Positions 1,670-18,571 of a stretch of 20,765 bases of DNA are shown here, piece after piece. Made by a program: the position numbers and the translations under genes. Location of the stretch: positions 1-20,765 of IMG/VR virus record IMGVR_UViG_3300007734_000449; one strand, given 5' to 3'. This stretch comes from a virus. The first letter of the stretch is position 1, and the number at the start of each line of letters is the position of its first letter. The notes beneath the pieces are model-generated. The model worked only from the letters and a program-made list of their open reading frames with translations. It was not told the origin of the DNA and ran no database searches.

Positions 1670-1692
1670 TATCTAACAACATATTTTACAAA
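1670..1692 (-). promoter_or_regulatory. Putative phage late promoter, copy D
   Basis: On the minus strand TTTGT, nine bases, then TGTTAGATA, ending 29 nt before the ATG of the 120-aa gene. It is one of five copies of the 9-mer in gaps before structural-region genes. It directly follows the terminator hairpin at 1709-1746, as expected at a transcription-unit boundary. The promoter function is inferred. Confidence 0.5.
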
Positions 1693-1708
1693 AATGGTAG
1701 GTTATAGG

Positions 1709-1746
1709 CAAAATAAAAGCATACCCCTTATAAAAGAGTATGCTTT
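1709..1746 (-). terminator. Rho-independent terminator
   Basis: On the minus strand a perfect 9-bp stem, AAAGCATAC with GTATGCTTT, around a 13-nt loop, followed by TATTTTG. It lies 23 nt after the stop codon of the tail-tube-like gene and before the motif that precedes the next gene. Confidence 0.7.
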
Positions 1747-1768
1747 AATATATTTTAGTGCTTACTGA

Positions 1769-2329
1769 TTAAGCTGCTGACCCACTAACTACTGTTGGTG
1801 GATTTGCTACACCTGCGAAAGGGTTGGTTGGTGTGCTACCTGATAAGAATTGTGCTGGTAAAGGCTCTAATCCTGTCATGGTAATTGAATAACCGTACAA
1901 ATCCCCGAGCCCTGCTCCTGTTTGAATTGTTCCTGCGGTTAAATCCACACCTTTAGTCAAACCTGCTACCAATGCATCACCATTAGTTGTCCATACAATT
2001 GCAACCGGACGGCCATAAGCCAAAGTTTTCAATTGTGTAGTCATTTCAGCGGTCAATTTCTTTAAGTTAAGGGTTAATTCTTGTGAAAAGAATGTAGTTC
2101 CGTTTTCTCTTGAGGAATTGACAGTTTCAGTATATGCACTTGTTCCTTTAAGTTGATAAAAATATACCACACTTCCACTTGGGAAAGCTGTGACATATCC
2201 GGTAGATGCGTTATCTGTAAATGTTGGGTCAAAGGAGCTAGACGGGTAGTTCATAAAATAAACTCCCTGTAAGCCACCTACACTTTCTTTACAAACTTCT
2301 TGTCTACCTAAAGATAAATTACAAGCCAT
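1769..2329 (-). CDS. Putative tail tube-like virion structural protein
   Basis: A 186-residue protein starting MACNLSLGRQEVCKESVGGL. The middle reads like a tube or head-tail structural fold: SRENGTTFFSQELTLNLKKL (about 74-93) and then a Gly/Thr-rich region ending in GLGDLYGYSITMTGLEP (about 139-155). Major tail tube proteins often have this pattern, in which a residue stretch 'G-D-x-x-G-Y-x-ltxxGxE' precedes the C-terminus. There is no enzyme motif and no membrane segment. It lies immediately downstream of the major capsid gene, separated by a strong hairpin, and ends at a second terminator, so it is probably abundant but transcribed differently from what follows. Tail tube is my preferred reading; a capsid-associated or collar protein is the alternative. 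Confidence 0.5.
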   Translation of the reverse strand: MACNLSLGRQEVCKESVGGLQGVYFMNYPSSSFDPTFTDNASTGYVTAFPSGSVVYFYQLKGTSAYTETVNSSRENGTTFFSQELTLNLKKLTAEMTTQLKTLAYGRPVAIVWTTNGDALVAGLTKGVDLTAGTIQTGAGLGDLYGYSITMTGLEPLPAQFLSGSTPTNPFAGVANPPTVVSGSAA

Positions 2330-2359
2330 AATATTTTGATTTAATTTTGTTTGTTATTA

Positions 2360-2387
2360 AAAGGGTGAGTGTTTCTACTCACCCTTT
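2360..2387 (-). terminator. Hairpin after the capsid gene, possible attenuating terminator
   Basis: A perfect 11-bp stem, AAAGGGTGAGT with ACTCACCCTTT, and a 6-nt loop, 13 nt after the capsid stop codon. On the minus strand only TAATAAC follows, a weak T-tract, so termination may be partial or the hairpin may protect the mRNA 3' end. The T-rich side (ATTATTTTTT) faces the plus strand, where no gene is seen. Confidence 0.55.
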
Positions 2388-2400
2388 AATTATTTTTTGT

Positions 2401-3372
2401 TTAGTATGCTCCGTAGTATACAATGTCTTGACCGATACCGAAAATTACACCACCTGTGTATCTCATGATAACACGATAGTTTTGGCTTCCGTCAATGTTT
2501 GCCATATCCAATACTCTAACTTCGTTGTAATCAGATAATAAACCTGTTCCAAAGTGTAAGTTAGATTTTTGAGCTGCAACAATTTTAGATGCAGACATAC
2601 CTGGACATAATACGATTTCAACACCATTAAAGTTGAATGGTTTTTCACCAACGTTCATTTGGTTGTTCCAACCATTTGCACCAATTGCTCCACCTGCTAA
2701 TGCTTGTTGGTATGCTTTTGCTACATTTGTTGGCACATACATCAATACGTCCTCTTTACCATAAACTGTATCTGGGATACTATCTACTACTGAGTTCATT
2801 ACTGATAATACGTTTGCTGACGTAATACTTCCAGAGATAATCACACTACCAGATTTTGCTGGTAATACTGCTGTTGCTCCACCTGCTGCAATTGAAGCTG
2901 ATAATTGAGCTTGGAAACCAAGGAATGACCCGTTAGTTGCTGTTCCTTGCCAAATTGCTTGTTCAGTTGCTTGAGCTACGATACCACCTACATAAGAGAT
3001 TAAGTAATCGTTGAAAGATTTAGGGATAGTATCAAAAGCCGAGTACCCCATTTGGATGCTTTCCCAACTTGCTACAAAGTTTTGCTTACATAATTCTAAG
3101 TTAACTTGTAATTCTTTTGGAGTTAATACTGCTTCAGATAATGCTACACTACCTGAGGTCACGAAATCACATGATGCATCTTGTACGATACCATCTACTG
3201 CAATTCTTTGGATAACTTCTTTGTATTTCACGTTAGGGTGAATAGTCACATATTTGTTATCCAATGTTTTAGCCGATAATAAGCTACTTGCTATATACTG
3301 GCCTGCAAACTCACCTGCATACGTGTTTTGCGTAAATGTAGGTTGAGCTGTTAAGTTCAATGTTTTGTTCAT
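2401..3372 (-). CDS. Major capsid protein
   Basis: A 323-residue protein with the layout of the capsid family common in Bacteroidota phages, presumed HK97 fold. The N-terminal arm includes YAGEFAGQYIASSLLSAKTL, then a PNVKYKEVIQRIAVDGIVQ segment, then ELQVNLELCKQNF and WESIQMG (E-loop to spine region). The C-terminal part has the Gly-rich, non-charged look of an axial domain and ends in GGVIFGIGQDIVYYGAY. There is no protease or decoration domain fused to it. It follows the scaffold gene by 27 nt and shares its putative promoter at 4075-4097; the hairpin at 2360-2387 follows it. The start ATG at 3372 lies after an A/T-rich leader without a Shine-Dalgarno sequence. Length and neighbours fit a capsid of ordinary size. 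Confidence 0.85.
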   Translation of the reverse strand: MNKTLNLTAQPTFTQNTYAGEFAGQYIASSLLSAKTLDNKYVTIHPNVKYKEVIQRIAVDGIVQDASCDFVTSGSVALSEAVLTPKELQVNLELCKQNFVASWESIQMGYSAFDTIPKSFNDYLISYVGGIVAQATEQAIWQGTATNGSFLGFQAQLSASIAAGGATAVLPAKSGSVIISGSITSANVLSVMNSVVDSIPDTVYGKEDVLMYVPTNVAKAYQQALAGGAIGANGWNNQMNVGEKPFNFNGVEIVLCPGMSASKIVAAQKSNLHFGTGLLSDYNEVRVLDMANIDGSQNYRVIMRYTGGVIFGIGQDIVYYGAY

Positions 3373-3399
3373 TGTAAATATTTTTTGTTTGTTAATAAT

Positions 3400-4059
3400 T
3401 TATCTATACATTTTTGATAATACTGACGCTTGTGCGTTATCAGTTTTCTTACCAAAATTGTTAAAGTTCTCTTGTGAAAATCTGTTAATTTGTTCAACTG
3501 GAGCACCATCTAATTTAGGTAATTCCATTTCAACATCTTTTTCAGTTGCAATGTCAGCTGCTTTCTTATCAACTACTTCCTCTTTAGGTTTCATTTCTGC
3601 AAACATTGATTTCATTTCTGTCATTGCTTTTTCTAATTCGTCAATTCTATATCCTAAAGATATGATTGGGTTTTCAGTCTCCGGTGTTGCTACTTCGTTT
3701 GCATCACTTTCATCTGTTGTGTTAGGTAAGCTTTTTGCTTCCTCTGTTGTTGCATCTGCCATTTCCATTTCAGCTTCTGGCAATTCAACATTTTCTCTTT
3801 CAACGATTTTACCATCCATAGTCATAATTTTAATAAGAGTTTCATTACCCTCACTATCTCTTAAACTAATTTCATGTTCTCCGTCTGGAGCTTTTGTTTT
3901 TGTGCCGTCTTCAGCAACTACTTCTACATCCTCACCTACATCAAATGTTGGAGATTGTAAAATTGTGCCATCTTTTGTTTTGGCATCTGTAAAGTTAACT
4001 TCTTTTGCATCTAATGATAACAAAGTAGCTATTCTATTTAATACATTTTTCGCATTCAT
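3400..4059 (-). CDS. Capsid scaffolding protein
   Basis: A 219-residue, strongly acidic protein directly upstream of the capsid gene. The N-terminal half is a small beta-rich domain with repeated short strands (TFDVGEDVEVVAEDGT, EHEISLRDSEGNE, IKIMTMDGKIVE). A disordered Glu/Thr-rich linker follows, then a predicted coiled coil (YRIDELEKAMTEMKSMFAEM, about 137-156) and a basic C-terminus ending ASVLSKMYR. A central coiled coil with a short basic tail that docks on the capsid is the usual design of phage scaffolds. I see no Ser-His-Asp protease arrangement, so a fused prohead protease is unlikely. The gene carries a copy of the TGTTAGATA motif 15 nt before its ATG and seems to lead the head-gene transcript. 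Confidence 0.7.
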   Translation of the reverse strand: MNAKNVLNRIATLLSLDAKEVNFTDAKTKDGTILQSPTFDVGEDVEVVAEDGTKTKAPDGEHEISLRDSEGNETLIKIMTMDGKIVERENVELPEAEMEMADATTEEAKSLPNTTDESDANEVATPETENPIISLGYRIDELEKAMTEMKSMFAEMKPKEEVVDKKAADIATEKDVEMELPKLDGAPVEQINRFSQENFNNFGKKTDNAQASVLSKMYR

Positions 4060-4074
4060 ATTGTAATGTTTAAT

Positions 4075-4097
4075 TATCTAACAATACTAAAATCAAA
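4075..4097 (-). promoter_or_regulatory. Putative phage late promoter, copy C
   Basis: Minus strand TTTGA, nine bases, TGTTAGATA, ending 15 nt before the scaffold ATG. The TTTGA box overlaps the stop codon of the upstream methyltransferase gene. The 15-nt spacing and the following TTAAAC are shared with the copy at 13042-13064. A short AACAA/TTGTT inverted repeat frames the box. Confidence 0.55.
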
Positions 4098-5325
4098 TGT
4101 TGTTAAAAATATAGTCCTTTACAGAATTATTTTCTGTTTTACTCGTTAAAAGTTCTATTATTTTCGGTGAAACCAAGTCGGGATGCACCCACCAGTCCTC
4201 AAACCAGTTCTCTTTATCAATTGAAATGTTTGGCACAATCAATTTATATCCCATCATTTCCAAATACTTTCTGCTTTTATCTCTCATAGTTTTATCTACA
4301 TCTATATACCAATCATGTTCATATGTTATAACTGCAAATCTGTATTTGTCAAATGGAATAAGTAGCAATGCTTCAAATGTATTTCTTGCAGGTTCACAAT
4401 CTAATTGCAAATAATCATAATCAGTTCCCATGTTTTGACTATCTAATATTTCTAAGTAATTTGCTTTAGTTGCATCTCTATGTAAGCATGGATTTTTTCT
4501 TTTACCATTAAACCATGTCACTAACGGCCCGTTTATTTCTAATGATACACCTTTCCAATTAAACTTATCCTCTAATAGATAAGTGTTAGAATGTTCAAAT
4601 GGTTTATTAGCACCTATCTCTAAATACTTACCATTTGTTTTACCATCTAATGCCATCAGCACAAACATATCCTGAAATGCTTGTGAATGGTTTTTGTCAA
4701 TTTTATCCACACCATCAAACTTATATTTCAATTTATCTATTTGGTCTTTTGTATAGTAGCTAGGTTTAGTATAATCAAGTGTTCCCCATATGCACATAAT
4801 ATTTCCTTTAACAATTTGTGTATAGACATCACCTAAATCAACATTTTCTAAAAGATATGTAGATAGTTTAATGCTCTCATCAGTTCTACCCATATGCCAA
4901 CTAACTACACTTTTTTCAAACAAAAACCCCCATTTACCTGGGTATTCTACACTCTTTAGCTCGTCCAACTCAAAATTACTCACTAAAAGTCCTATTTCTG
5001 CAGCAGTATAACTTTCTTGCCACTCTCTGTTTCTTTCATACAATCTACTTAATAAGAAATGTCCTTCTGATTTCATAGGTAATACTGATATAGCGTGTAG
5101 ATACATTCCTTTTGCATAAGTCTTTCTCCAATTTTGCTTTTCAAAACATAAACCACACTTCAATAAACTTTCGTAAATCAATAAATCATTTTTGCTACAT
5201 TCGGTCACCCTTAGATAAAAAGATAATGCTGCTGCATATTCCTCTTTATCGTAATACCAATTTGCTAAATCAAAAACTACCAAATCATTGTATGGTGCTT
5301 GTATAAAACTACTTAATTCCGTCAT
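4093..5325 (-). CDS. TPR-like domain fused to FkbM-type SAM-dependent methyltransferase
   Basis: A 410-residue protein with two parts. Residues 15-190 are helical pairs of tetratricopeptide type (LANWYYDKEEYAAALSFYL, EGHFLLSRLYERNREWQESY, VVSWHMGRTDESIKLSTYLL). Residues 215-390 are an FkbM-like methyltransferase: SQAFQDMFV, the SAM loop KYLEIGAN at 233-240, the acidic ribose-binding SLEI at 261-264, and DYLQLDCEP at 304-312. FkbM enzymes O-methylate sugars or small metabolites. In phages such fusions often accompany glycan genes. The upstream GH130-like gene overlaps it by 17 nt, so the two are probably co-translated and act on the same substrate. Plausible targets are glycans on the virion fibres or the host surface; the substrate cannot be read from sequence. 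Confidence 0.75.
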   Translation of the reverse strand: MTELSSFIQAPYNDLVVFDLANWYYDKEEYAAALSFYLRVTECSKNDLLIYESLLKCGLCFEKQNWRKTYAKGMYLHAISVLPMKSEGHFLLSRLYERNREWQESYTAAEIGLLVSNFELDELKSVEYPGKWGFLFEKSVVSWHMGRTDESIKLSTYLLENVDLGDVYTQIVKGNIMCIWGTLDYTKPSYYTKDQIDKLKYKFDGVDKIDKNHSQAFQDMFVLMALDGKTNGKYLEIGANKPFEHSNTYLLEDKFNWKGVSLEINGPLVTWFNGKRKNPCLHRDATKANYLEILDSQNMGTDYDYLQLDCEPARNTFEALLLIPFDKYRFAVITYEHDWYIDVDKTMRDKSRKYLEMMGYKLIVPNISIDKENWFEDWWVHPDLVSPKIIELLTSKTENNSVKDYIFNNI

Positions 5326-6271
5326 AAACTAATTTTAAGAAATAATCTTTTGGGATTTCTAATAAGAATGCTGCATTATCTGAATATGCAAATGTAATCA
5401 GTATCTTATCATTATGTTCTGCAATACCACAACAAAACTCAATCATGCCTGTCATGAAGTCAAATACTTCTGTTCTATGAATTATATTCCATTCTTTATC
5501 AAACACAATTACTCTGTGTCTATATGTTGCATCTTTATTGTTTTGTGTATTCCTCCAATAATCTGTCTCGTGAATAACACACATCCTATGGTCACCAATC
5601 GTTATTACCTGACTGCCACCACGCATATCTTTTTCAATTGGTAGTATGTTCTTACCCAGAAACACCTGTTCAGTATCACCGTTTATATTTGCTTTAACAA
5701 TCTCTACGGGATTACACCACTTTACATAATGAAATGGCATATCTAAAATAGGCATCCAATTCTTTTCACAATAACTTTCTTTATTAAATGGTGTTGGTAT
5801 TCTAAACCTACTTACTTCTTTATTATCTTTAATTTTAGATAATTCCATTCTGCCTATACCAGTTGTTTCAGTATCTCTACGCACACCTGTAAGGTAAACA
5901 TCATTGTCCCAATCAACTAATCTGCAATCCTCTAAACCAACAAACTCCCATAAAGGTTTTGTATCAAAATTGCTTGTATCAACTTTTGTAGGATTTATTA
6001 ACTCACCATCTTTCCATTCACCTAAATAATTTGTTGTAGTAAGTGTAATATCGTTTTCAGGGTTAAGATAGCACAAAGGCCCAAACCTACTTTCATATTT
6101 GCCTGAGGTATGATATAGGGTATATTGACAATGCCTAATACTGATTAGTATTTCATTGTTCTTAACTAAAATTGAGGGATTGAATAATGCAGTCTTATTA
6201 TCTGTTGGAAAAACCAATGGATATATTTTGCCGCCATTATCTAAAATGAGTTTTGTAAGATTTGCCACCAT
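5309..6271 (-). CDS. GH130-like five-bladed beta-propeller glycan enzyme
   Basis: A 320-residue protein with the blade-like repeats and conserved pieces of glycoside hydrolase family 130 and relatives (mannoside phosphorylases and related enzymes): FNPSILVKNNEILISIR at 30-46, VGLEDCRLVD at 111-120 (family motif G-x-E-D-x-R, whose Asp is the usual catalytic acid), EKNWMPI at 169-175, GGSQVI with VIHETDYW at 218-239, YRHRVIVFD at 250-258 and IEFCCGIA at 277-284. There is no signal peptide. It overlaps the FkbM methyltransferase gene by 17 nt. The putative promoter box ends only 3 nt before the ATG, which would give an almost leaderless mRNA. It may modify or bind a glycan; catalytic activity is not shown, and a related non-catalytic sugar-binding propeller is an alternative. 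Confidence 0.65.
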   Translation of the reverse strand: MVANLTKLILDNGGKIYPLVFPTDNKTALFNPSILVKNNEILISIRHCQYTLYHTSGKYESRFGPLCYLNPENDITLTTTNYLGEWKDGELINPTKVDTSNFDTKPLWEFVGLEDCRLVDWDNDVYLTGVRRDTETTGIGRMELSKIKDNKEVSRFRIPTPFNKESYCEKNWMPILDMPFHYVKWCNPVEIVKANINGDTEQVFLGKNILPIEKDMRGGSQVITIGDHRMCVIHETDYWRNTQNNKDATYRHRVIVFDKEWNIIHRTEVFDFMTGMIEFCCGIAEHNDKILITFAYSDNAAFLLEIPKDYFLKLVYDGIK

Positions 6272-6274
6272 ACA

Positions 6275-6297
6275 TATCTAACACTAGAAAAACTAAA
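6275..6297 (-). promoter_or_regulatory. Putative phage late promoter, copy B
   Basis: Minus strand TTTAG, nine bases, TGTTAGATA, ending 3 nt before the GH130-like ATG. TTTAGTTTTTC is identical to the copy at 13042-13064. An AACACT/AGTGTT inverted repeat spans the region. The very short distance to the ATG implies a leaderless transcript or a non-promoter role. Confidence 0.5.
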
Positions 6298-6301
6298 AGT
6301 G

Positions 6302-6487
6302 TTAAATCTGTTCTATACTAATGATTTCACCACCTATTATGGCAATTGTTTTTAGTATTTCGGTTCTTGCACTTTCAATTGCTTCATCTAATGTCTCCGT
6401 ATTGGTATAGTAATCTCTATGTCTTTGAATGGTGATTTCACCTTCTGCAATTTGTGGATTATATACAACTCTAATTATTCTTTCCAT
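6302..6487 (-). CDS. Small hypothetical protein, 61 aa
   Basis: A 61-residue protein, MERIIRVVYNPQIAEGEITI onward, with an alternating pattern of short strands and one helix (TLDEAIESARTEILKTIAII). There is no signal, membrane segment or metal motif. I do not recognise it. It lies 10 nt after the Cys-rich tail protein gene and just ahead of the putative promoter of the glycan cassette, so it is probably the last gene of the fibre transcript. A fibre accessory role is only a guess from position. Confidence 0.5.
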   Translation of the reverse strand: MERIIRVVYNPQIAEGEITIQRHRDYYTNTETLDEAIESARTEILKTIAIIGGEIISIEQI

Positions 6488-6497
6488 AATTTATTTT

Positions 6498-7172
6498 TTA
6501 TACACTACACCAAGTATTACAATTGGTATAATTTGGTGATGCATTACATATTGCTCCTGGTCCTGTAAAGACCTCCTCACTTAAAATATAATAAAACCCA
6601 CCTGCTTGCAATTCATAAAACTTACCATAATTTGGTGTAAATGGTAATGCGAATGCTACTAATACATCTGACATACTAAATGTGCAAGTCACTCCATCAC
6701 AATAATACTCATCTGCTAAATACAAACCATAACTTGGACTAGAGCATGCAGTAATTGAGGTCACACCAGGATAACATCCATCAGGACAACTTTGATAATA
6801 TGCATCAGTTCCATTACTCCAATATCCTTGTGATGCTTCCGCAGTTCCTGTTGAGTTAGTATATAAAATTGTTCCTGTTGTTAAACTACCACTCCAATAT
6901 AAAGTTGTATTTGGTGTTCCTGCACATGCTGCAGCTGCACTTACACTACTATAATAAAATGTTCCACTATTATATCCACAATTTTGACAATATGAATACC
7001 AACTACTTAAACTAACTTGTCCACTTGAGGGCGGTTTAGAGGGAGAGAATTGATTTATAGCAACATATGTTCCAAGTCTGGCTTCATTTATTCCAAAAGG
7101 TGATTGACTAGGCACTCCTAATTCAACCCTTATATCATCCATACTGATTTGACCACTGCTTGGTAATGCCAT
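6498..7172 (-). CDS. Tail or fibre-associated protein with Cys-rich C-terminal repeats
   Basis: A 224-residue protein. The start, LPSSGQISMDDIRVELG, is a motif seen at the N-terminus of many phage tail and fibre proteins and is echoed inside by KPPSSGQVSLSSWYSY. From residue 62 on it is rich in Tyr, Ser, Thr and Cys, with the pattern A-A-x-x-C-x-G, then L-Y-x-x-x-x-x-x-G-x-x-L-Y-T, then G-Y-W-S-x-G-x-x-A-Y. This resembles DUF5977-type repeats of Bacteroidota surface proteins, and a second weaker unit follows. No transmembrane segment is seen. It follows the S74-ending fibre with one nucleotide between stop and start. I infer a distal tail or receptor-binding component. The Cys-rich part may carry disulphides or be a small adhesive domain. 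Confidence 0.55.
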   Translation of the reverse strand: MALPSSGQISMDDIRVELGVPSQSPFGINEARLGTYVAINQFSPSKPPSSGQVSLSSWYSYCQNCGYNSGTFYYSSVSAAAACAGTPNTTLYWSGSLTTGTILYTNSTGTAEASQGYWSNGTDAYYQSCPDGCYPGVTSITACSSPSYGLYLADEYYCDGVTCTFSMSDVLVAFALPFTPNYGKFYELQAGGFYYILSEEVFTGPGAICNASPNYTNCNTWCSV

Positions 7173-7173
7173 T

Positions 7174-8883: not shown

Positions 8884-8890
8884 ATATTTT

Positions 8891-11800
8891 TTATGTTAAT
8901 CTTATCATTACGAAATTACCGTTTCTATATAATCCACCTAATGGCACTCCACCTGCTGCTGCGGCCGTATCATCTGCAAAGTTTAGAGATGCTGATACAC
9001 TTGTCAATATTGTATACGAATTAGCAATTAAACTACCTGATACTACTAATGGTGTTAATACCGATACTCTACCATCTGTCCAAGTTGATTTATTTTGAAA
9101 ACCTAAAAACGCAGGGTATAAATCACTTGGGTCATTTCCATATATTGCAGGTCCTGACCATCCACTTACACCATATGCATCAGTATCTAATGTAAAACCC
9201 AATTCATCTGCTGTTGTAGTATTTGATTGAGCTATTGAATATTGATTAACATAACTTGCTATATCAGTTCCTGTATTAGCTGTTCTAAATCCTGCAGGTG
9301 ATAAATAAACTGCACCATTGGAGCCTGATACAACCATACTATCTTTTACTATTAAATCGTATGTTGCGGACGAGCTTATCGTTAAACTACCCGTCATTGT
9401 TGTGCTACCAGATACATTCAAAGTTCCTTCAATAAATGTATTACTACCGCTATCAATTAAGAAGCCTGTTTTTCTTGTTGTTGTATTACCTGTTCCTACT
9501 GCAAATACTACATCAGAAGTTTTATTTCGTCTACTATCGTCTGCGTTAAATCTACCTACGAATACTGAGCCATTGGTGGATGCATCAGCTGTTAAACTGC
9601 TACCACTTACGATTAGATTATTTCCCATCAATCCAGTCCTAATTACATTTTTATATACAGCAGTGCCACTTAATCTTGCATTTGCAACATCTATATAAAT
9701 GGTATTGCTACCACCAAATATAAAGTTATCAGATATTGAGTTTGATTGTGCACCACCCACAGGTAATGACCCACTTATTGTAATTGAGTTTGATTGGCCA
9801 CTAATGGTATTTCTATTCAAATTGACAGTACCTAATCCTAAACTACTTGAATAATATTGATTTGTAAAAGTAAATCCAATATCGTTGATAATATTATTAC
9901 TCATTGCAACTGCAGAGGAGCTTAGGTTTAGAGTTGTAGCACCTGCAATTATATTGCTATTTATAGTCACACTTGAGGATAATGCACTTTGATTTGCAAT
10001 AAGGTTTAGTGCTCCTAGTAAATTATTACTATTTAGAGTTAATCCACTAACTAATTTTTCTGCGTTATTTGCTGCACTACTTCCTATGTTCACACCCAAT
10101 TGGACAATATTATTATTTATATTCCATGCAGAGCTACTTACTGGCCCTCTCATACCTAAAAATGTGGCACCAGTCACACTACCAAAATAGTTATTACTCA
10201 GCGTAATTGGAAACGCCATTGACCCACTCATTTGTGGTAAGTTTCCACTAAGCGATATATTTCCACTTGTTGCAAATCTCTTAAATCCTGCAGTCGGTGC
10301 AATTGGATTTGTAAATATATTTCCACTACCTGATATAATTGTATCTGCGGTATTATTATTATCTTTGAATACTAAATTGACTTGTCCGTTTGCTGATGCT
10401 GATATATGTGCAAATGACGAGCTCGTAAATGTATTTGCAACTAATATTAAACTACCTGAATAAGGATTTAATGTTGGGTTATTATATGTTGTTCCTCCAC
10501 CACCAAATGAGCTTGTTGCAACTAATGTAGATATACCACTTGCATTACCAACATAAGTAAATCCATTTGCTAATGATGCAGTAAAAGTTCCTTCTAACTC
10601 TAAATTACTAACTGCACCACTCTCATCTAACATTCGGAATGTGTTAGTTGTAGTATTGTATATTATTGTTGCACCTTGTGCAAAATCACTATCACTAATC
10701 TTTATTCCTCTAACAAATGACCCCGTGCCATAAAAAGTAAGATTTTTAGGGAATGACCCTTCCATTACAATACTTCCTGATTGCTTAAATACTAATCCAC
10801 CACTTGCTCCACTAATTCCAAAAGATGCAGTGCCAAATGACGGATTACTATTGTCTATCATATTATATACTCCACCATTTTTAGAAATAGTTTGATTGCC
10901 TGTAAATACATTGCTACCTGTTGTTGCAAAACTACCTGTGTTGATACTACTACCAGCAAATGAGCTAGTTGCTACTACTGTTGTATAATTACTACCATTA
11001 CCAACCCACACATATCCATTTGCTAAACTTGCAGTAAATGTTGAATTAGCTGCATCAATACCACCTTGTGCATTTATATTTAATTTACCAGTTGACCCAC
11101 TTACTACATTTAATGTAAAACCTGCAGCACCTCCTGTAAAGTTTATAGGATTACCTGCTCCTGCTTGTTGATTATCAAATGAAATAAAACTGCTACTAAC
11201 TCTGTTTATAAACTTTATAGAATTACCTTCACCACCTGGTCCAGCTGGTGGTTCAGTTATTAGTTGAATTGTGCTTGTTGCACTAATACTTGATATGTCA
11301 CCTGAATTACCTGAAAAACTTAAACCATTTGGAAAACTAAGATTACCACTACCTTGTATTGCAATAGACGAGGATACTAATGTTTGATTACCTCTAAATG
11401 TATTGCTACCTGTTGTTGCAAAACTACCTGTGTCAATACTTGTTCCGAATGAGCTTGTTGCAACTAATGTTGTTCTATTATTGCTATCACCTACCCATGC
11501 GTATCCTTGTTGTAAACTTGCAGTTAAACTACCAGTTAATTCTAGGTTTTGTAATCCAACAATTGGTCTTGGAAATGTCACTCTACCATCTGTATAAGAT
11601 GCTGTTGCAGCTTGAAATTCAATTACAGTATATGGTATACCACCCGGCGTATATGCTGATATTACAGGTTTTTCCGTTATATTGTCATATGCAAATCCTA
11701 ATTGGTTTTGGTTAAATCTTGTTAATACAAAACTACTAGGGCTTAGGCCCAAAGTGTTTTGATTGGTATAAAAAGGGGGCACCGGTAGTTCACCAACACG

Positions 11801-12781
11801 CACATTTCCATATACTATTAAATCAAGAGACGCACTACCTGAAATAGTGACTTGACCTGTTATAGTTTGATTGCCATTGAATGTATTGCTACCTGTTGTT
11901 GCAAACCCTGGTAAATCAAATGTAGTTGCATCTCCTTTTGTAAATGTTATATTTCTATTTGCAAAAGATGCAGTCACTAACAAACTACCTGAGCTTACAT
12001 TATCTCCTTGCGTTCCTTGCACACCTTGAATACCCTGTGCACCCTGTGCTCCATTACTACCAGTTATACCAGTTATACCCTGAATACCTTGTGCTCCGGT
12101 AAATCCTTGCACACCTTGTGTTCCAGTTGTTCCTTGCAATCCTTCTAAACCCTGTATTCCTTGTATACCTTGTGCACCTGTTGCACCTTGTGTTGAATTA
12201 TCTGCACCTTGTATTCCCTGTAAGCCTTGTGTTCCTTGGCTACCACTTACTCCCTGAATGCCTTGCAATCCTTGCAAACCTTGTACTCCCTGCAATCCCT
12301 GAGTTCCCTGTGTTCCTTGTAGTCCTTGAATACCTTGACTTCCACTTGCACCTTCAATTCCTTGGATACCTTGCAAACCTGTTATACCCTGTATGCCTTG
12401 TGTTCCTTGTAATCCTTGTATGCCTTGCAGACCTTGTAATCCTTGTAAGCCAGTTATTCCTTGAATGCCTTGTGTTCCCTGTAAACCCTGTAATCCTTGT
12501 ATACCTTGTGCACCTTGTAATGATATAGAGGAGGTTGCTACTGCTTGGTTATACCCATTACTATCACCTAACCAAATATAATTGGCAGGTAATTGTGCAG
12601 TCATAGTTCCACTAATGATTTGATTACCTATAAAAGTATTGCTACCTGATAATAATGCACTACTGCTTATCCAACTATCGTTTAAGTCTCTAACTGCAGA
12701 AGCAGATATACCACCATAGACATTTGTAAAGTAAGCTGCGTTAGACGCAGATATAAGTTGTTGTTTTGTATATTGAGCCAT
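8891..12781 (-). CDS. Large collagen-like tail fibre or adhesin, 1296 aa
   Basis: A 1296-residue, Ser/Thr/Asn/Gly-rich protein, likely trimeric and elongated. Residues 1-88 form the attachment region. Residues 90-260 are a Gly-Leu/Ile/Thr-Gln collagen-like shaft almost without proline. Residues 297-761 contain repeated modules of the type VATSSF ... [11 protein letters not shown]-x-GNQT (about 47-87, 297-308, 420-469, 583-633 and 734-761). Residues of about 830-1100 have many S-x-N-x-I and NN steps, suggesting a right-handed beta-helix. The C-terminus, ending in [15 protein letters not shown], repeats a domain also seen near 318-418 (LSP, TDGRV). I see no S74 chaperone here. It is probably the main receptor-binding or baseplate fibre. 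It follows the 79-aa gene by 5 nt and shares its putative late promoter. Confidence 0.8.
12002..12514 (-). repeat. Collagen-like Gly-x-Gln coding repeat, 1296-aa fibre
   Basis: About 171 codons (residues 90-260), dominated by GLQ, GIQ and GTQ triplets, with a few breaks such as GASGSQ and GADNSTQ. The DNA is a degenerate 9-bp repeat that resembles the one at 7600-8373, so recombination between the two fibre genes is possible. Confidence 0.85.
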
Positions 12782-12786
12782 GTATG

Positions 12787-13026
12787 TTAAGGATTAGTTT
12801 GTGTTAAGTCGTTTATAGGTGATTGGATTACACCGATACCTTGTTCTATTAAAGCACCTCCACAGCAATCTCTGCCGTATCTGTCCTCATTTATACATAG
12901 ACAACCTCTACGATTGTTTTTTGGACTTGATAAACCCTGAGTAGGGCCTATGTAAATCCCACTAGCATTCTGTCTGTTGACTGAATATCTTAGGTTTCCG
13001 TTTCTGCTATTGCTCCAAATTGCCAT
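12787..13026 (-). CDS. Small Cys-rich conserved phage protein, unknown function
   Basis: A 79-residue protein starting [20 protein letters not shown], with a central Cys cluster [17 protein letters not shown] (about 42-58) that could hold a metal or disulphides. It ends in [18 protein letters not shown] believe similar short proteins occur beside tail genes in Bacteroidota phages, but I cannot name a family. It starts the fibre transcript: a TGTTAGATA motif ends 15 nt before its ATG, and the giant fibre gene follows after 5 nt. A tail-tip, adaptor or fibre-assembly role is inferred from position alone. Confidence 0.55.
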
Positions 13027-13041
13027 TAAAGGTAAGTTTAA

Positions 13042-13064
13042 TATCTAACAACGGAAAAACTAAA
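13042..13064 (-). promoter_or_regulatory. Putative phage late promoter, copy A
   Basis: Minus strand TTTAG, nine bases, TGTTAGATA, ending 15 nt before the ATG of the 79-aa gene, in the short gap after the tail-chaperone pair. This spacing and the downstream TTAAAC match the scaffold-gene copy. It would drive the fibre genes. Confidence 0.6.
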
Positions 13065-13073
13065 TGTTGTGGG

Positions 13074-13385
13074 TTATCTTATAGATTTCATAGCTTCCTT
13101 ATGCATTAACTCTTGCATGAATGCTTTATCTGATTTATATGCTAATAGTAATAAGCATTTCTCTAATGGTTGATTGACTATTTCGTCAATGGCTCTGACA
13201 TCACCTCCTGCAAGTTCAACAATTGTTGCATAACTTTTCCACTTCTTTCCAAAGTTTGCTTGAGATTTGCTGGAATATCCCCCTTCGCTATCGTAGAGTT
13301 CAGGGTAGAGTTCAGTAAGTCCATTAACAAATTGACAAAAAAAAAGAGACAACCAAAATGCACATCCATACTTACCTCTAACCAC
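13074..13385 (-). CDS. -1 frame extension of the tail assembly chaperone (GT-like part)
   Basis: A second open frame, -1 relative to the 221-aa gene. Only the part from 13337 down to 13074 (87 residues) is used if ribosomes slip on the T9 run. It encodes NFGKKWKSYATIVELAGGD, then EIVNQPLEKCLLLLAYKSDK, a helical segment that looks like a conserved protein and not like random sequence. The upstream end at 13385 is only a GTG inside the other gene, with no credible start, and the first in-frame ATG is close to the C-terminus. Both facts favour translation by frameshift over an independent gene. The fusion would be 256 residues: 169 from the first frame plus 87. In lambda, the G-T fusion made by a -1 frameshift binds the tape measure and tail tube during tail assembly; the same role is inferred here. 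Confidence 0.6.
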   Translation of the reverse strand: MVRGKYGCAFWLSLFFCQFVNGLTELYPELYDSEGGYSSKSQANFGKKWKSYATIVELAGGDVRAIDEIVNQPLEKCLLLLAYKSDKAFMQELMHKEAMKSIR

Positions 13386-13843
13386 TTTGCTTCATCTATT
13401 ACTCCATCATAAGGTTTAATGGTATAAGTTTCGTTTTTCTTTTTAGTTTCTATTGGCCTGTATAGTATAGACATTATCTTTGCCCAATTCTTATCTATGG
13501 TAAGTGTTTCGTATTTAGTTATGTCAGCGTATGCACCATAAGTCATTTTAGATAAGTTAGGTTCAAAGCCGTATTCAACATCTCCAATCTTAACAAACCT
13601 TTCTAATGGTAAATCTACTTTATTCATAAACCCATGCAACTTATTCTTTATTTTAGTATATGCATCATTGGGTAATGCTTGTATTTCCTCTGCCGTTAGA
13701 TTACATAAGTGGTTTAATACAAATGCATCTTGTGCATCTATATCATCTTTATAGTTCTCTAAATCTAATTGTAATGCAAGATATTGTTTTAAGCTTATAT
13801 CTTTCCAACTATCAGGTGTCGTTATTGTTATTGTCTTTTTCAT
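13178..13843 (-). CDS. Tail assembly chaperone-like protein (G-like short form)
   Basis: A 221-residue protein of a family I associate with Bacteroidota phage tail or structural clusters. The start is SWKDISLKQYLALQL, then LCNLTAEEIQALP, then FVKIGDVEYGFEPNLSKMTY and ITKYETL, then KIMSILYRPI and finally FGCLFFFVNLLMDLLN. The body is mostly helical with no enzymatic signature. It follows the coiled-coil gene with a one-nucleotide gap. Near its end (residues 167-169, Phe-Phe-Phe) lies a run of nine T, and a -1 frame stays open for 87 more codons. The pair looks like the two products of tail chaperone genes in lambda-like phages. The short product ends in a 52-residue tail that is replaced in the fusion. 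Tail chaperone is an inference from architecture and neighbourhood. Confidence 0.7.
   Translation of the reverse strand: MKKTITITTPDSWKDISLKQYLALQLDLENYKDDIDAQDAFVLNHLCNLTAEEIQALPNDAYTKIKNKLHGFMNKVDLPLERFVKIGDVEYGFEPNLSKMTYGAYADITKYETLTIDKNWAKIMSILYRPIETKKKNETYTIKPYDGVIDEAKWLEVSMDVHFGCLFFFVNLLMDLLNSTLNSTIAKGDIPANLKQTLERSGKVMQQLLNLQEVMSEPLTK
13293..13315 (-). repeat. 12-bp tandem duplication in the dual-coding overlap
   Basis: CTGAACTCTAC occurs twice with a 12-bp period on the minus strand. It gives LNSTLNST in the main frame and ELYPELYD in the -1 frame. A 12-bp unit keeps both frames open. Confidence 0.7.
13337..13345 (-). other. Slippery T9 run, probable programmed -1 frameshift site
   Basis: On the minus strand the zero frame reads CTC TTT TTT TTT GTC. 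A -1 slip on the T run gives TTT TGT CAA and enters the 87-codon extension. A homopolymer allows re-pairing of both tRNAs at all positions. I do not see an obvious strong pseudoknot within the next 20 nt. Confidence 0.6.
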
Positions 13844-13844
13844 A

Positions 13845-14054
13845 TTAATTATTGTGATTATCGTTATTGTAAGGTTTCATAAATATCATTAGTTGTGTCG
13901 TAAGTTGTCTTACCTTTGCCTCCTCATTTAATAGTTTGGCATTCATTGCAATAAGGTTAGCATTTTGTGTTTCGTTTATGTTTAACAACTCTCTAATCAA
14001 TTCCTCTAATTGCTGTATCTGTTCGTCTGTGTATTTAGTATTCATAATAGTCAT
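13845..14054 (-). CDS. Small coiled-coil protein, 69 aa
   Basis: A 69-residue protein, almost all one predicted coiled coil (DEQIQQLEELIRELLNINET and NAKLLNEEAKVRQLTTQLMI), with a His/Asn-rich tail. No family recognised. It overlaps the zinc-ribbon gene by 20 nt (11 nt if the second Met, at 14045, is used) and leaves one nucleotide before the chaperone-like ATG, so it belongs to the terminase-tail operon. Coiled-coil peptides here could aid assembly or packaging; nothing more can be said. Confidence 0.6.
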   Translation of the reverse strand: MTIMNTKYTDEQIQQLEELIRELLNINETQNANLIAMNAKLLNEEAKVRQLTTQLMIFMKPYNNDNHNN

Positions 14055-14496
14055 GTGTGTTTGGGTAATCTTTTGTAATAGTTTTTTTACTCTTTACTTT
14101 TTTAGTTTCTGCAGTTTCTTTATCTCGTCTGTCGTTTATCCATTTCATTAAGGGTGCATCATTAAATATCTCATCTAACCTTTCATTAAAGTATTTCTGC
14201 CACTCCTCTCTTACTTTCATTTTATGTAGTTTTACTCTCAATGGATAAAATCTAGTATGGTAATCATGGTTAGGCCCTTGATATGGGTATGGTTCTTTTC
14301 TTTCATACCTAGCTCTCTTGTTTGTTTCAATTACCTTTTGTGCTTGATTAACACATGCTTTACATCTCCAGCTTGGTTTAGGTGTGTGAAACGATGCTCC
14401 ACATTCTTTACATTGTCTTGTCTCACCATTCTTGTGGTCAAACTTTACATTCCATAATCCCATATAACTTATTATTTTATATAATACTGATAACAT
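14035..14496 (-). CDS. Zinc-ribbon protein in the terminase cluster, unknown role
   Basis: A 153-residue basic protein with a clear four-Cys zinc ribbon: CKEC at 29-32 and CKAC at 45-48. The rest is rich in Lys, Arg, Tyr and Pro (RARYERKEPYPYQGPNHDYH) and helical toward the C-terminus. The longest frame starts at 14496, overlapping the terminase by 20 nt and with a weak AGG before it. An in-frame ATG at 14463 (residue 12) would start 13 nt after the terminase stop codon and keep the ribbon. It may bind DNA during packaging or be a small regulator. I do not see an HNH core. The family name is unknown to me. Confidence 0.6.
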   Translation of the reverse strand: MLSVLYKIISYMGLWNVKFDHKNGETRQCKECGASFHTPKPSWRCKACVNQAQKVIETNKRARYERKEPYPYQGPNHDYHTRFYPLRVKLHKMKVREEWQKYFNERLDEIFNDAPLMKWINDRRDKETAETKKVKSKKTITKDYPNTHDYYEY

Positions 14497-15658
14497 ACTT
14501 GCCTGCGTTTAGTTTCTTTGCATTCAATCTTTCCATTACACCATATCTTAAAGCATCTAATAGGTGATTGTTTGCGTCAATAGGTATGTTCGTCACATTA
14601 CCATTACCATCGTCTATCCATTCGTAGGAGTATAATTCCTCAATCAAGTTAGTATTATTTTTTGGAATTACCAAATTAAATTGCTTGACTAAATCTATGC
14701 CCCATTGTATACTATCCTTACCTTTCTTAACTCCTCTTGCTAATGGAAACCCTCCTCTCTTTATCTCGTCTATCAGTCTTGGTTCTGCACTATCTACTAC
14801 TATGATATCCTTACTATCTACATTACCTCTAAGCAATTCTAATATCTCAGCAGTAATTAAACCTTTTTGATATATGTGTTCATTTACTATTAAACTATTA
14901 CCTGCTTTCCAAATACTAACTAATGCAGTCGGGTCACTTACATATCCTATATCCATACCGAAACAAATAAAATCTGCTGTGTCCATGTCAAAATCATCTA
15001 CAATCTCAAACTCATATATTTGTTTCTCATTCACTGCAAACTGGCCTAAACCATATGTCATCCAAAATCTCGGGTTGGTTTCTCTATACTTTTCAATAAA
15101 TCTAACCTGCTCTATTGGTAAGTAAGGGTTTGACTTGTAAGTTGTAATAAAGGTTGCACAATCGTCTCCAGATTGCACCTGTGATATAATCCAGTGCTTA
15201 GGACTGAATGAGGGATTGAAACTAAGTATGATTGTCCCTGTTGTTCTAATTGCTAGTTGTAAGTATTGGTCATAACTAAGTTCGTTTGCTTCATCTATCC
15301 ATAATACATTTCTCCTTAGACCTTTTAACTTCTCTGCATTATCTGTTGAGAAAAACTCTATCTGACTATCGTTGTCAAATGTATAAACCTTTTCAGTTGC
15401 CATCCATCTCTCATCGTCCCATAAACCCATCTCTTGCATTATATCTTTGAAATCTCTTAACGCAGAGGTTCTAAGTGCAGGGAATGTTTTACGGACTACT
15501 GATATTAAAAGCTTTTCCGATAATGCTTTAACGATAAGGTATTGTAGTAATGCAAATGACTTACCACTTCTTGCACTACCTTGGTGTAGTTGTATTTTCT
15601 TTTGACAATCCCATGCATTCTGAAATGTAATGGTTGTGTTAATTTTCAACTCGCTCAT
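14477..15658 (-). CDS. terL: Terminase large subunit (ATPase and nuclease)
   Basis: A 393-residue DNA-packaging motor of the Terminase_3 type. ATPase motifs are GSARSGKS at 27-34 (Walker A variant), VLWIDEA at 118-124 (Walker B with catalytic Glu) and a coupling motif near SFNPS at 146-150. The C-terminal RNase H-like nuclease has metal-binding Asp candidates in GMDIGY (Asp236), VVDSAEP (Asp289) and NNHLLDAL (Asp368). It cuts concatemers and drives DNA into the prohead through the portal. Its ATG overlaps the small-subunit stop by 20 nt, a typical arrangement that supports translational coupling. Length is a little under the common 420-480 but all motifs are present. Confidence 0.95.
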   Translation of the reverse strand: MSELKINTTITFQNAWDCQKKIQLHQGSARSGKSFALLQYLIVKALSEKLLISVVRKTFPALRTSALRDFKDIMQEMGLWDDERWMATEKVYTFDNDSQIEFFSTDNAEKLKGLRRNVLWIDEANELSYDQYLQLAIRTTGTIILSFNPSFSPKHWIISQVQSGDDCATFITTYKSNPYLPIEQVRFIEKYRETNPRFWMTYGLGQFAVNEKQIYEFEIVDDFDMDTADFICFGMDIGYVSDPTALVSIWKAGNSLIVNEHIYQKGLITAEILELLRGNVDSKDIIVVDSAEPRLIDEIKRGGFPLARGVKKGKDSIQWGIDLVKQFNLVIPKNNTNLIEELYSYEWIDDGNGNVTNIPIDANNHLLDALRYGVMERLNAKKLNAGKYVISII

Positions 15659-15953
15659 CTGTGCCTTTAATTATATTGACTGATATAGATTGTATCTTTG
15701 CATTTATATCCATTGTCCCACTTACATCTAAACTCCTTAGCTTCGGCATTGAGTATTCCATTAGTTTCATTGCAAGTTCCATTGCTTTAACCGGGTCAGT
15801 CTTTTTTATTTCAGCTAAGTCCGTTTGTATTGTGTCTAATGTATTATTTACTGCACGAGCAATATTCAACCTCATCATTTCAGTTGTGCGGTTTAGTGCT
15901 CCCTTTGGTCTCCCATTTGCATTTATTCTTGTATCTCCTTTAACGAAAGGCAT
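15639..15953 (-). CDS. terS: Terminase small subunit-like DNA-binding protein
   Basis: A 104-residue protein starting MPFVKGDTRINANGRPKGAL. NGRPKGALNRTTE resembles the N-terminal basic motif of small terminases and DUF5681-type proteins from Bacteroidota phages. A helical region follows, ending in LMEYSMPKLRSLDV. It would recognise the packaging site and recruit the large subunit. Immediate overlap with the large-subunit gene is the strongest support. The ATG lies 25 nt after a TGTTAGATA motif, making this the first gene of the putative late operon. A clear helix-turn-helix is not obvious by eye. Confidence 0.75.
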   Translation of the reverse strand: MPFVKGDTRINANGRPKGALNRTTEMMRLNIARAVNNTLDTIQTDLAEIKKTDPVKAMELAMKLMEYSMPKLRSLDVSGTMDINAKIQSISVNIIKGTDERVEN

Positions 15954-15978
15954 ATTGTATTTTATTATATTTTACTAC

Positions 15979-16001
15979 TATCTAACACTACTTAAATTAT
16001 T
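15979..16001 (-). promoter_or_regulatory. Putative phage late promoter, copy E (weaker)
   Basis: TGTTAGATA on the minus strand, ending 25 nt before the small-terminase ATG. The upstream box is AATAA instead of TTTAG/TTTGA, so only the 9-mer is conserved. It overlaps the end of a tiny membrane-peptide ORF. Confidence 0.45.
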
Positions 16002-16101
16002 TTGTATTGAGTATCTCACATGCAATAGATAGTGTCAGGATTGTCAGGTATGCAATCAGGAGAGTTATTATATCTTTGTTATTATTATACCAATCTTTCA
16101 T
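15997..16101 (-). CDS. 34-aa hydrophobic peptide, possible membrane or lipopeptide
   Basis: A short frame, MKDWYNNNKDIITLLIAYL onward, 34 residues, with a hydrophobic stretch IITLLIAYLTILTLSIA (about 11-27) followed directly by Cys28 and a short polar tail. The helix with a Cys at its end resembles a lipoprotein signal (SIAC, an imperfect lipobox) or a single-pass membrane peptide such as a small holin or spanin piece. It overlaps the preceding 56-aa frame by 17 nt and ends inside the motif before small terminase. It is short, so it may be chance; the hydrophobic run and tight overlaps argue for a gene. Confidence 0.4.
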   Translation of the reverse strand: MKDWYNNNKDIITLLIAYLTILTLSIACEILNTK

Positions 16102-16255
16102 ACCCATACATTTTAACCATATTGCCTTCTAAGTCTGCTATTATCAAAGCACCTCTCATATTATTTCCTTTAAGTATAATTTGTTTATCACGTATCCATG
16201 TCCAATTAAAGTTGAAATATGCATAGTTGTAATCTATTTGGTGATAGTTAGTCAT
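16085..16255 (-). CDS. 56-aa hypothetical protein overlapping the sigma-like gene
   Basis: A 56-residue frame, MTNYHQIDYNYAYFNFNWTW onward, aromatic-rich and with a mixed strand pattern (GALIIADLEGNMVKMYGYE). The ATG overlaps the sigma stop codon in ATGACTAA, the same 8-nt overlap style seen at the sigma start (ATGCATAA), which suggests translational coupling. No family recognised. It fills the otherwise unexplained region between sigma and terminase genes. Confidence 0.5.
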   Translation of the reverse strand: MTNYHQIDYNYAYFNFNWTWIRDKQIILKGNNMRGALIIADLEGNMVKMYGYERLV

Positions 16256-16802
16256 GGAATGGGTTGTCTAATAAATCTCTCATATGTGACCTCATTTTTC
16301 GGATATGTATAAAGGTAGTTGATTTACTAATTCCAATACTATCTGCTACTTCATTAAGCGTTTTGTCCGAATACCAATAGTCCTCATATATCATAGCAGA
16401 AGCAAAATGCTTAGTCTTTTTTATATTTTGTAATTCATTTCTAACATCATCATATGCTTTCATTACATCTAAGTCCTTCTGCGTATCGTATTCTTGCATA
16501 GGTTCATCGTTCTCTATAAACCCTATATACTTAGTCCTATTTAATTTGGTGGTCTTATTTAACCATCTATGCTTCAGGAATGCCATTGCATACATTTTGT
16601 TATAACTGTCACCAAAGAATATCTTAGGGTTGCACTTCTCGTGCAAATAAATCATTAACTCTTGCACCAAATCCTCGCTTTCCTCTTTTGATTTAGTTAT
16701 GTTATATGCTACTTGCAGACACCATGTATTGCATGTTCTAAAGAATGTATCTAATCTCTTATCACATTCTATTCTCATACTACCGGTGACTTCGTTATGC
16801 AT
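16248..16802 (-). CDS. Sigma-70-like (ECF-type) transcription factor
   Basis: A 184-residue protein resembling sigma factors with regions 2 and 4. Region 2 is around CLQVAYNITKSKEESEDLVQ, with DLVQEL, a typical core-binding motif. Region 4 is a helix-turn-helix, TLNEVADSIGISKSTTFIHI, near the C-terminus, followed by basic residues that would contact a -35 box. Such proteins redirect host RNA polymerase. I chose the ATG at 16802, whose ATGCATAA overlaps the upstream stop codon; a TTG at 16811 in the same frame is possible. It lies upstream of the packaging, tail, fibre and head genes and next to the first TGTTAGATA copy, so it is a good candidate for the late-gene activator. That link is inferred. 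Confidence 0.75.
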   Translation of the reverse strand: MHNEVTGSMRIECDKRLDTFFRTCNTWCLQVAYNITKSKEESEDLVQELMIYLHEKCNPKIFFGDSYNKMYAMAFLKHRWLNKTTKLNRTKYIGFIENDEPMQEYDTQKDLDVMKAYDDVRNELQNIKKTKHFASAMIYEDYWYSDKTLNEVADSIGISKSTTFIHIRKMRSHMRDLLDNPFHD

Positions 16803-17314: not shown

Positions 17315-18571
17315 TTATCTACCTACTTCATTTAGATATTTTGATTTGCATTGTTCCCAAGTCATACCAATAACATCTATATAATAAAGTGTTTCGTTTT
17401 TTAATCTACCTTCTGTGTGTAGTGTTGTATATCTTTTAATTGCTTTATCTTTCCACCACTTAATCGTATAATCATCACCTTGTTCAAAAATGGGATTTAA
17501 CTTTAATTCCTCTGCGGAAATCTTACTTTGTAAATACTCTTTACCATTCTCGTGAAAGATTGAAAAGTATACACCTCTCTTAAATCCATGGTTATATGTG
17601 CCTGCTTTTATTCCAATCTCTTTTAAGATACGATTTAACATTACCTGTTTAGGGCCTGTTGCGTCTATTGAGTATGCGTAAAAGTCTGGATAAGTTTCTC
17701 TAATCCAATTCATCCAGGGTTTATAAACATTATCATCAGGTTTAATTCCTACTTTACCTGCACTTTCTCCTAATGTCTTAAAGTGTTTTATACCATTATA
17801 CATACTACTTGCACCATATAAAGCAGTTGTGTGTATTGCACATAAGACATCGTTGTATTTTCTATACCATTCATTACGAAAAGTTGGTGAGGTTGTTAAG
17901 GCTGCCATTAACTTACCACCTAAGAAATTGTATCCAAATGGTTGAGTTGCAACTATGGTTGTTCCCATTGCAATGTTATTTAATTTGCCTTCCTTAAACT
18001 TATTATCTTTATTCCATCCTATAAATTGGTCTCTTACCTTTACACTCACTACATCACTACCTAAACTTACAACACCTAATAGTTTGCCTGTTATTCTATC
18101 TTTAACATATGCCTTTACATTCCTGCCTGGGTTTGCTGTAAACTCCATAGTAGATATTAACCTTCTTATGTTAGTCCACTTTGTCATATCCTCTACAATC
18201 TCAACATAAGGTTCTAATGCATTTATTTCTGCAATAGTCAAATCTTTATTGAATATGTCTTTAGGTCTCCATATGTTATCGTAGTATGATTGTAATGCAG
18301 GTAATTTTTCCATAGACGAATGTAAGTCTTTATTCCACTCCTGCCATTTTTTATAGAGTGTGCTTTCCTCAACTGACATATTTGATAACATAGTAAAGTT
18401 ATCTAGCAAAACTTGTTTGTTTCTCTCAAAGTTAAACTCAGTTTCTACCTCAGGTCTATCCCAAAACTTTATACTGGTTTTTTCTTTTTTAACAAATACT
18501 TCATCTGCCACCCAATCAAAGTTATCACAAAAGTTTTCACCTGGTTCCAAACTATAATCTAATTCCACCAT
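17315..18571 (-). CDS. DruA/DUF4338-like protein
   Basis: A 418-residue protein. The central part (about 150-285) matches, by eye, the DUF4338 or DruA layout: GKLLGVVSLGSDVVSVKVRD at 162-181, IGWN, then NNIAMGTTIVATQPFGYNFL, then GGKLMAAL, W-x-x-K-Y-x-D, and LYGASSMYNGIKHFKTLGES. In DruA the counterparts are an 'R-D-x-x-I-G-W' strand, a short 'N-L-A-S-x-x-L' helix and a 'G-T-x-Y-x-A-x-N-W-x-x-x-G' stretch. N- and C-terminal regions look phage-specific. DruA is a Druantia defence component whose biochemistry is not settled. No helicase (DruE) or other Druantia gene is nearby, so this is not a defence system as it stands. It may be a phage DNA-modifying or DNA-binding protein. A Mom-like acyltransferase is a weaker alternative. 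Confidence 0.55.
   Translation of the reverse strand: MVELDYSLEPGENFCDNFDWVADEVFVKKEKTSIKFWDRPEVETEFNFERNKQVLLDNFTMLSNMSVEESTLYKKWQEWNKDLHSSMEKLPALQSYYDNIWRPKDIFNKDLTIAEINALEPYVEIVEDMTKWTNIRRLISTMEFTANPGRNVKAYVKDRITGKLLGVVSLGSDVVSVKVRDQFIGWNKDNKFKEGKLNNIAMGTTIVATQPFGYNFLGGKLMAALTTSPTFRNEWYRKYNDVLCAIHTTALYGASSMYNGIKHFKTLGESAGKVGIKPDDNVYKPWMNWIRETYPDFYAYSIDATGPKQVMLNRILKEIGIKAGTYNHGFKRGVYFSIFHENGKEYLQSKISAEELKLNPIFEQGDDYTIKWWKDKAIKRYTTLHTEGRLKNETLYYIDVIGMTWEQCKSKYLNEVGR

Follow-up and report, generated by a model that had tools for sequence, protein, structure and literature searches.

Predicted bipartite late promoters, very probably read by a phage-encoded ECF-type sigma factor, in a family of uncultured phages

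The word TGTTAGATA recurs before several genes of an uncultured virus that also carries a sigma-like gene, which raises the question of whether these copies are late promoters and whether the phage's own sigma factor reads them. The analyzed window is the IMG/VR viral contig IMGVR_UViG_3300007734_000449, a stretch of 20,765 bases (perhaps a fragment) in which the main genes all lie on the minus strand. We found exactly five matches to TGTTAGATA, all on the minus strand and none on the plus strand, compared to 0.60 expected; 0 of 100 shuffled sequences reached five. The first-pass annotation had placed five minus-strand copies in the gaps before the 120-aa, scaffold, GH130-like, 79-aa fibre-leader and small terminase (TerS) genes, and our scan recovered the same positions and the same distances to the ATG (29, 15, 3, 15 and 25 nt, respectively; Table 1). 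Its statement that no copy occurs above 16 kb also holds for the exact word. The sigma-like gene was described there as sitting immediately before the first copy; a 56-aa ORF (16085-16255) lies between them.

Using capsid, terminase and sigma protein searches, we collected 259 distinct IMG/VR contigs or loci as relatives. In this set, 492 of the 521 regions upstream of the TerS, 79-aa, scaffold and 120-aa genes contained TGTT[AT], i.e., it stood before TerS in 178 of 194 relatives, before the 79-aa gene in 122 of 133, before the scaffold gene in 108 of 109, and before the 120-aa gene in 84 of 85. In a smaller set, TGTTA occurred within 100 nt upstream of these four genes at 79, 90, 91 and 93% of loci, respectively, compared to 0-9% for nine control genes (capsid, 186-aa, portal, TerL, 221-aa, sigma, 78-aa, 87-aa and 68-aa) and 16-24% in shuffles. 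The full nine-nucleotide word is kept in close relatives only, and the wider core is TGTTA. The close relative G001, with a sigma protein 89% identical to that of the window, contains exactly five exact copies of TGTTAGATA, four before the same genes as in the window and one before a gene of the same glycan segment. A lack of conservation in relatives, or a motif just as common in coding and early regions, had been named as observations that would speak against the promoter reading; instead, the core TGTTA stands before the same late genes across relatives and is almost never found within coding sequence or at the starts of other genes. Nearly all contigs spanning the region keep the gene order 87-aa, 78-aa, sigma, TerS, TerL. 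One contig (IMGVR_UViG_3300043395_001957, 62,622 bases, loci L013 and L016) carries two different full phage gene sets; at roughly double the usual 31-35 kb, it probably represents two genomes joined in assembly.

The relatives' sites revealed a second conserved element, TAACTAYWWWT, that starts 22 nt before TGTT. When sites were picked by TGTT[AT] alone, without use of the upstream element, positions -22 to -12 read T (66%), A (68%), A (76%), C (47%), T (51%), A (84%, position -17), Y, W, W, W and T (60%). In the four target gene sets, the distance from AAC to TGTT peaked sharply at 21 nt and at 18 nt; the control gene sets showed no such peaks. The conservation of TAACTAYWWWT upstream of TGTT is indicative of a bipartite, -35/-10 promoter, the predicted consensus of which is TAACTAYWWWT, 11 nt, and TGTTA with a phage-specific tail (GATA in the window). 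A scan of the window with a bipartite model built from relatives returned the same five sites as the top five matches, with scores of 17.8-25.7, whereas the best score in 20 shuffled windows was 16.3; this is a consistency check only, because the tail part of that model was partly derived from the window sites. The same circularity caution applies to the strong bipartite hits in 22 phages, where 91 of 98 are intergenic on the late strand, 2 coding and 5 antisense, since the model was trained on part of those sites. The upstream element is present in all five window copies, including the TerS copy, which seemed to have no partner and has CAATACAAAAT, of a class that reads TAACTACAAA at the relatives' TerS sites. 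The first-pass annotation had proposed TTTRN as the upstream partner, and TTTGT, TTTGA, TTTAG and TTTAG do lie 9 nt upstream in four copies; the conserved element, in contrast, lies 3-8 nt further up. We rejected the proposed TTTRN-N9 partner as a -35 element because, among relatives, only G001 repeats it, whereas TAACTAYWWWT does recur, and TTTAG, TTTGA and TTTGT overlap just the 3' end of the latter.

Table 1. Predicted promoter elements, hairpins, sigma gene and late units of the window, with promoters of Nonlabens phage P12024S
Feature	Position	Strand	Basis
-10-like element TGTTAGATA, 120-aa gene	1670..1678	-	motif scan
-35-like element CTACCATTTTT, 120-aa gene	1690..1700	-	bipartite model scan
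Terminator-like hairpin, directly upstream of 120-aa promoter	1716..1746	-	
Terminator-like hairpin between major capsid and 186-aa genes, 12-pair stem	2360..2387	symmetric	
-10-like element TGTTAGATA, scaffold gene	4075..4083	-	motif scan
-35-like element TAACAACATTT, scaffold gene (window's top score)	4095..4105	-	bipartite model scan
-10-like element TGTTAGATA, GH130-like gene	6275..6283	-	motif scan; spacing
-35-like element TTAACACTTTT, GH130-like gene	6295..6305	-	bipartite model scan
-10-like element TGTTAGATA, 79-aa fibre-leader gene	13042..13050	-	motif scan
-35-like element CCACAACATTT, 79-aa gene	13062..13072	-	bipartite model scan
-10-like element TGTTAGATA, TerS promoter	15979..15987	-	motif scan
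-35-like element CAATACAAAAT, TerS promoter	15999..16009	-	bipartite model scan
Predicted phage sigma factor, 184 aa, ECF-type fold	16248..16802	-	AlphaFold2, Foldseek, VIA-align, phrog_1740
Predicted late unit: TerS-TerL and following			
Predicted late unit: 79-aa, fibre, collagen-like and tail genes			
Predicted late unit: GH130 and methyltransferase-like			
Predicted late unit: scaffold, capsid, (hairpin 2360-2387), 186-aa			
Predicted late unit: 120-aa, HNH, portal; promoter after hairpin 1716-1746			
P12024S promoters (L375, NC_018271.1)	167-181, 3019-3033, 5400-5414, 23949-23963, 25189-25203, 26790-26804		CGTTAMTAWWNNATG scan

A weaker antisense late-type candidate was detected at 19189 (+) in the window, with a score of 15.0, inside the range of shuffled maxima, and the G004 contig has an exact TGTTAGATA at 32799 (+). 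Both point against early genes at a similar offset from sigma (-2387 in the window and -2360 in G004), and they may possibly drive transcription over early genes from the opposite strand.

TGTT is constant across phages and the following bases vary: the tail is AGATA in the window, G001 and G004, and AAATA, AAAGA, AAAAA, ATATA, ATTAT or TTTAA in others, and a given tail recurs at different promoters of one phage. Within-phage tail identity (+4 to +8) was 0.72, compared to 0.52 in permutations that reassigned the sites of each gene across phages (z 12.4, 0/1000); the outer flanks showed no within-phage excess (-30 to -23, z 0.9; +14 to +21, z 0.7). The sharing of tails by non-homologous sites in one genome suggests one trans-acting reader per phage, and this reader is most likely the phage sigma. 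Among 45 phages, tail distance correlated with sigma distance (Mantel r 0.41) and to a lesser degree with TerL distance (0.13); the partial correlation was 0.39 for sigma given TerL and 0.06 for TerL given sigma. Sigma also tracked the tail better than scaffold or portal, with the exception of capsid, for which the correlation was on par with that of sigma (r 0.44 vs. 0.37). Corrected for the rest of the protein, the signal within sigma was found at residues 25-36 (partial r 0.43-0.45) and 61-76 (0.28), followed by residues 130-139 (0.25); thus, tail variation appears to follow the phage sigma most strongly in regions 2.1 and 2.3. Mutual information with promoter positions +4 to +6 was high for V31, S66, N68, K69, M70, M73 and K77, and residue types track the tail type; at position 34, for instance, N34 accompanies A at +6, and K34 accompanies T. 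Residues E4 and N150 covary strongly with promoter base +5 though they lie outside region 2, possibly as a result of shared descent. It should be noted that in 93 independent nearest-neighbour pairs, region 2.1 was borderline (p 0.05) and no single residue was significant after correction. This test has low power because many nearest pairs hardly differ in tail, and its weak outcome means that part of the residue-level correlation may reflect shared descent. Between the -35 element and sigma region 4, no clear covariation was found.

Extracytoplasmic-function-type (ECF, group 4) sigma factors consist of regions 2 and 4 only, at about 180-200 aa. The 184-aa phage protein has just these two, region 2 at about 8-85 and region 4 at about 111-183, and its putative target, assigned by correlation, is a bipartite promoter at fixed spacing. 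The AlphaFold2 model (pLDDT 82.9) contains two domains, with helices at 7-86 and 107-177; the pTM of 0.43 reflects the lack of a fixed arrangement between the domains. The best structural matches in Foldseek and VIA-align were SigL, SigH, sigmaE, SigW, SigR, AlgU and SigK: region 2 fits SigR (1h3l; Z 8.9, 2.4 A over 75) and region 4 fits sigmaE (2h27; Z 9.5, 2.7 A over 69), with the caution that helical folds easily reach middling Z, here with top rows that are almost all sigma factors. The predicted fold of the phage protein is, by this model, that of an ECF sigma. In profile searches, Pfam Sigma70_r2 (18.5 bits) and r4 (14.9 bits) both scored under the gathering cut-off for the window sigma, Sigma70_r2 matched 10 of 26 sigma family members (best 8.5e-5), and phrog_1740 (sigma factor) matched the window sigma with E 3e-6. 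We mapped residues to SigH by eye, from the family profile through SigR region 2, which pairs the invariant Y71 with SigH W81, M73 with Y83, and T26/W27 with D38/Q39. The covarying V31, K69, M70 and M73 then fall at or beside the -10-strand contacts of sigmaH (D38/Q39, specificity loop, W81 and Y83). In SigH, Y83 holds -10 bases -7/-6 and D38/Q39 contact the flipped-out base that ends the -10 element (PMC6411747).

Two sigma queries against 50,697 phage genomes gave no match. In the species-genome collection, the sigma profile gave one short weak match (39 residues, in a Lachnospiraceae MAG), so that this search shows no sign of the sigma gene in host chromosomes. TGTTA precedes the sigma gene itself at 4% of loci, which fits a presumed early expression from a host promoter. 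A DruA-like gene (17315-18571; Pfam DruA, E 7e-23) lies upstream of sigma in the early operon, and few relatives have it.

We conclude that the five copies are very probably the -10 elements of a bipartite late-promoter regulon read by the phage-encoded 184-aa ECF-type sigma. The earlier proposal of late promoters for the phage's own sigma thus gains sequence-based support from conservation, intergenic placement and tail-sigma covariation. The main competitor, which we regard as quite unlikely, is that the sites are promoters for a host sigma, primary or alternative ECF, with tails that differ as the hosts differ. Each phage has its own host, so that agreement among the tails of one phage would also follow from the host, and host ECF sigmas could read GTT-type -10 elements (PMC6411747). 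Against this, the motif does not resemble the housekeeping pattern of Bacteroidota, the tails follow the phage sigma with a peak in its -10-reading regions, and almost every contig spanning the region keeps the sigma gene in synteny ahead of TerS. A point that counts against the phage-sigma reading, with its host-driven early phase, is that host-type TTTG/TAnnTTTG promoters were not enriched over chance in the window (27 near-matches, compared to 19-40 in shuffles), which gives no basis for calling early promoters; a scan for the sigma70-type consensus likewise showed no excess. One host-type near-match, at 19171 (-), falls in an early gap.

A short conserved word before several operons is also what would be expected of operators for a phage activator or repressor acting on host-sigma promoters. 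We consider such operators very improbable, because two elements at a fixed spacing of 18-22 nt, in nearly the same position with respect to gene starts, are what a promoter would show, and a sigma gene is present throughout the family. The location of the word 12-38 nt before start codons in the window, counted from the T of TGTT to the ATG, could likewise point to an RNA signal in the 5' leader, i.e., a processing site or a translation enhancer. However, the word occurs at some genes only, at the heads of transcription units and once right behind a terminator-like hairpin, and an RNA signal would leave the -35 partner 18-22 nt upstream unexplained; this option is hardly credible.

The phage-sigma regulon would operate as follows. 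Early in infection, host RNA polymerase with a host sigma would transcribe the early operon that holds the 184-aa sigma gene. The two-domain phage sigma would then join the host core polymerase, with region 4 binding the -35 element and region 2 opening and reading TGTTA plus the tail, and transcription would begin some 12 nt past the T of TGTT. The units switched on in this way, presumably late, would be those for packaging (TerS), fibre (79-aa), glycan (GH130), scaffold/capsid and 120-aa/portal. The late genes are predicted to form five units headed by the five putative promoters (Table 1). At the hairpin after the capsid gene, a minus-strand transcript would form the same stem, followed by TTTT. 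The segment 4093-6271, with the GH130-like gene and then a TPR and methyltransferase-like gene, makes a separate late unit that is common to few relatives only (G001, G004 and G022). An HNH-endonuclease-like gene (927-1268) lies between the 120-aa gene and portal, and is absent there in G001 and other relatives.

With TGTT set at -12, as in SigL (PMC6372665), the predicted starts are 1666, 4071, 6271, 13038 and 15975. At the GH130 site, the T of TGTT is 12 nt before the ATG, and position 6271 is the A of the start codon; therefore, the GH130 mRNA is predicted to be leaderless. The other four predicted leaders are 12-26 nt long. The variable ATG distances are thus explained by short leaders plus one leaderless mRNA. 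Independent support for this start placement comes from the 12-nt spacing in the Nonlabens phages P12024S and P12024L (NC_018271, NC_018272; Inhavirus), distant relatives that resemble the window: a sigma-like gene of their own lies close to the terminase, and AAC...CGTTAATA stands ahead of several genes. P12024S is a cultured flavobacterial phage with a capsid 29% identical, and its sigma-like protein matches the family profile with 94.8% probability (E 5e-8). It has CGTTAMTAWWNNATG at six annotated gene starts, compared to 0.02 expected, each with exactly 12 nt from C to ATG; the sister phage P12024L has five such promoters, each also 12 nt from C to ATG. Unlike the TGTTA of the window, the -10 core of both phages is CGTTA, and their promoters abut the start codon, so that the mRNAs at the 12-nt promoters are predicted to be leaderless. 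A literature search found no transcription study of the P12024S and P12024L promoters.

Similar arrangements are known from other phages. In Salmonella phage 7-11, the phage sigma SaPh711_gp47 serves late genes with bipartite promoters, and early genes use host sigma70 (PMC8948821). The window resembles it in a phage-encoded sigma with predicted bipartite promoters before late operons, and differs in that phage 7-11 is enterobacterial and its consensus is GTAAtg-(16)-aCTA, compared to TAACTAYWWWT-(11)-TGTTA here. In phiEco32, phi32_gp36 reads tAATGTAtA before middle and late genes with a start 6-8 bp downstream; the promoter is a single element without a -35, and phi32_gp36 lacks region 4 homology and is helped by gp79 (PMC8948821). 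The window likewise has a sigma gene and a short word before late genes, with use of the word by sigma predicted; in contrast to phiEco32, it has a -35 element and a region 4. The feature that defines this type, a sigma gene with a shared word before late operons, was found in the window, and the consensus of the subgroup, tAATGTAtA or GTAAtg-16-aCTA, was not. Judged by these comparisons, the predicted system works like the phiEco32/7-11 kind while standing outside that subgroup. Among bacterial ECF sigmas, Mtb SigL and SigH and E. coli sigmaE share the predicted fold of regions 2 and 4 only, and the TGTTAG of the window is close to the -10 consensus of SigL, TGN(C/A)AG (PMC6372665), and to the GTT of sigmaH (PMC6411747). 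The -10-reading parts of these proteins are where the phage sigma and promoter covary. Unlike the bacterial ECF sigmas, to which it has 10-18% identity, the phage sigma has no known anti-sigma gene and is apparently dedicated to phage late genes.

In the open-licence PMC literature, we found no late promoters or working sigma reported for Bacteroidota phages, and phage-encoded late sigmas are characterized in few systems. What appears to be new is the family, its promoter, the leaderless cases and the joint variation of sigma and promoter; the mechanism is familiar. We lean towards the reading that, in a large uncultured family, sigma and late promoters have repeatedly shifted -10 specificity together via matched changes in regions 2.1/2.3, with at least some late mRNAs leaderless. 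Under this reading, the -7-like base would have become G, A or T, and the base after it A or T. Because sigma/promoter pairs differ by few residues and bases, -10 specificity is open to swap tests, and the cultured P12024S is a ready laboratory system with a sharp prediction of leaderless mRNAs. If true, these results would supply nearly two hundred uncultured phages with a predicted regulon, and would offer a natural series in which to decipher how sigma region 2 recognizes the -10 element.
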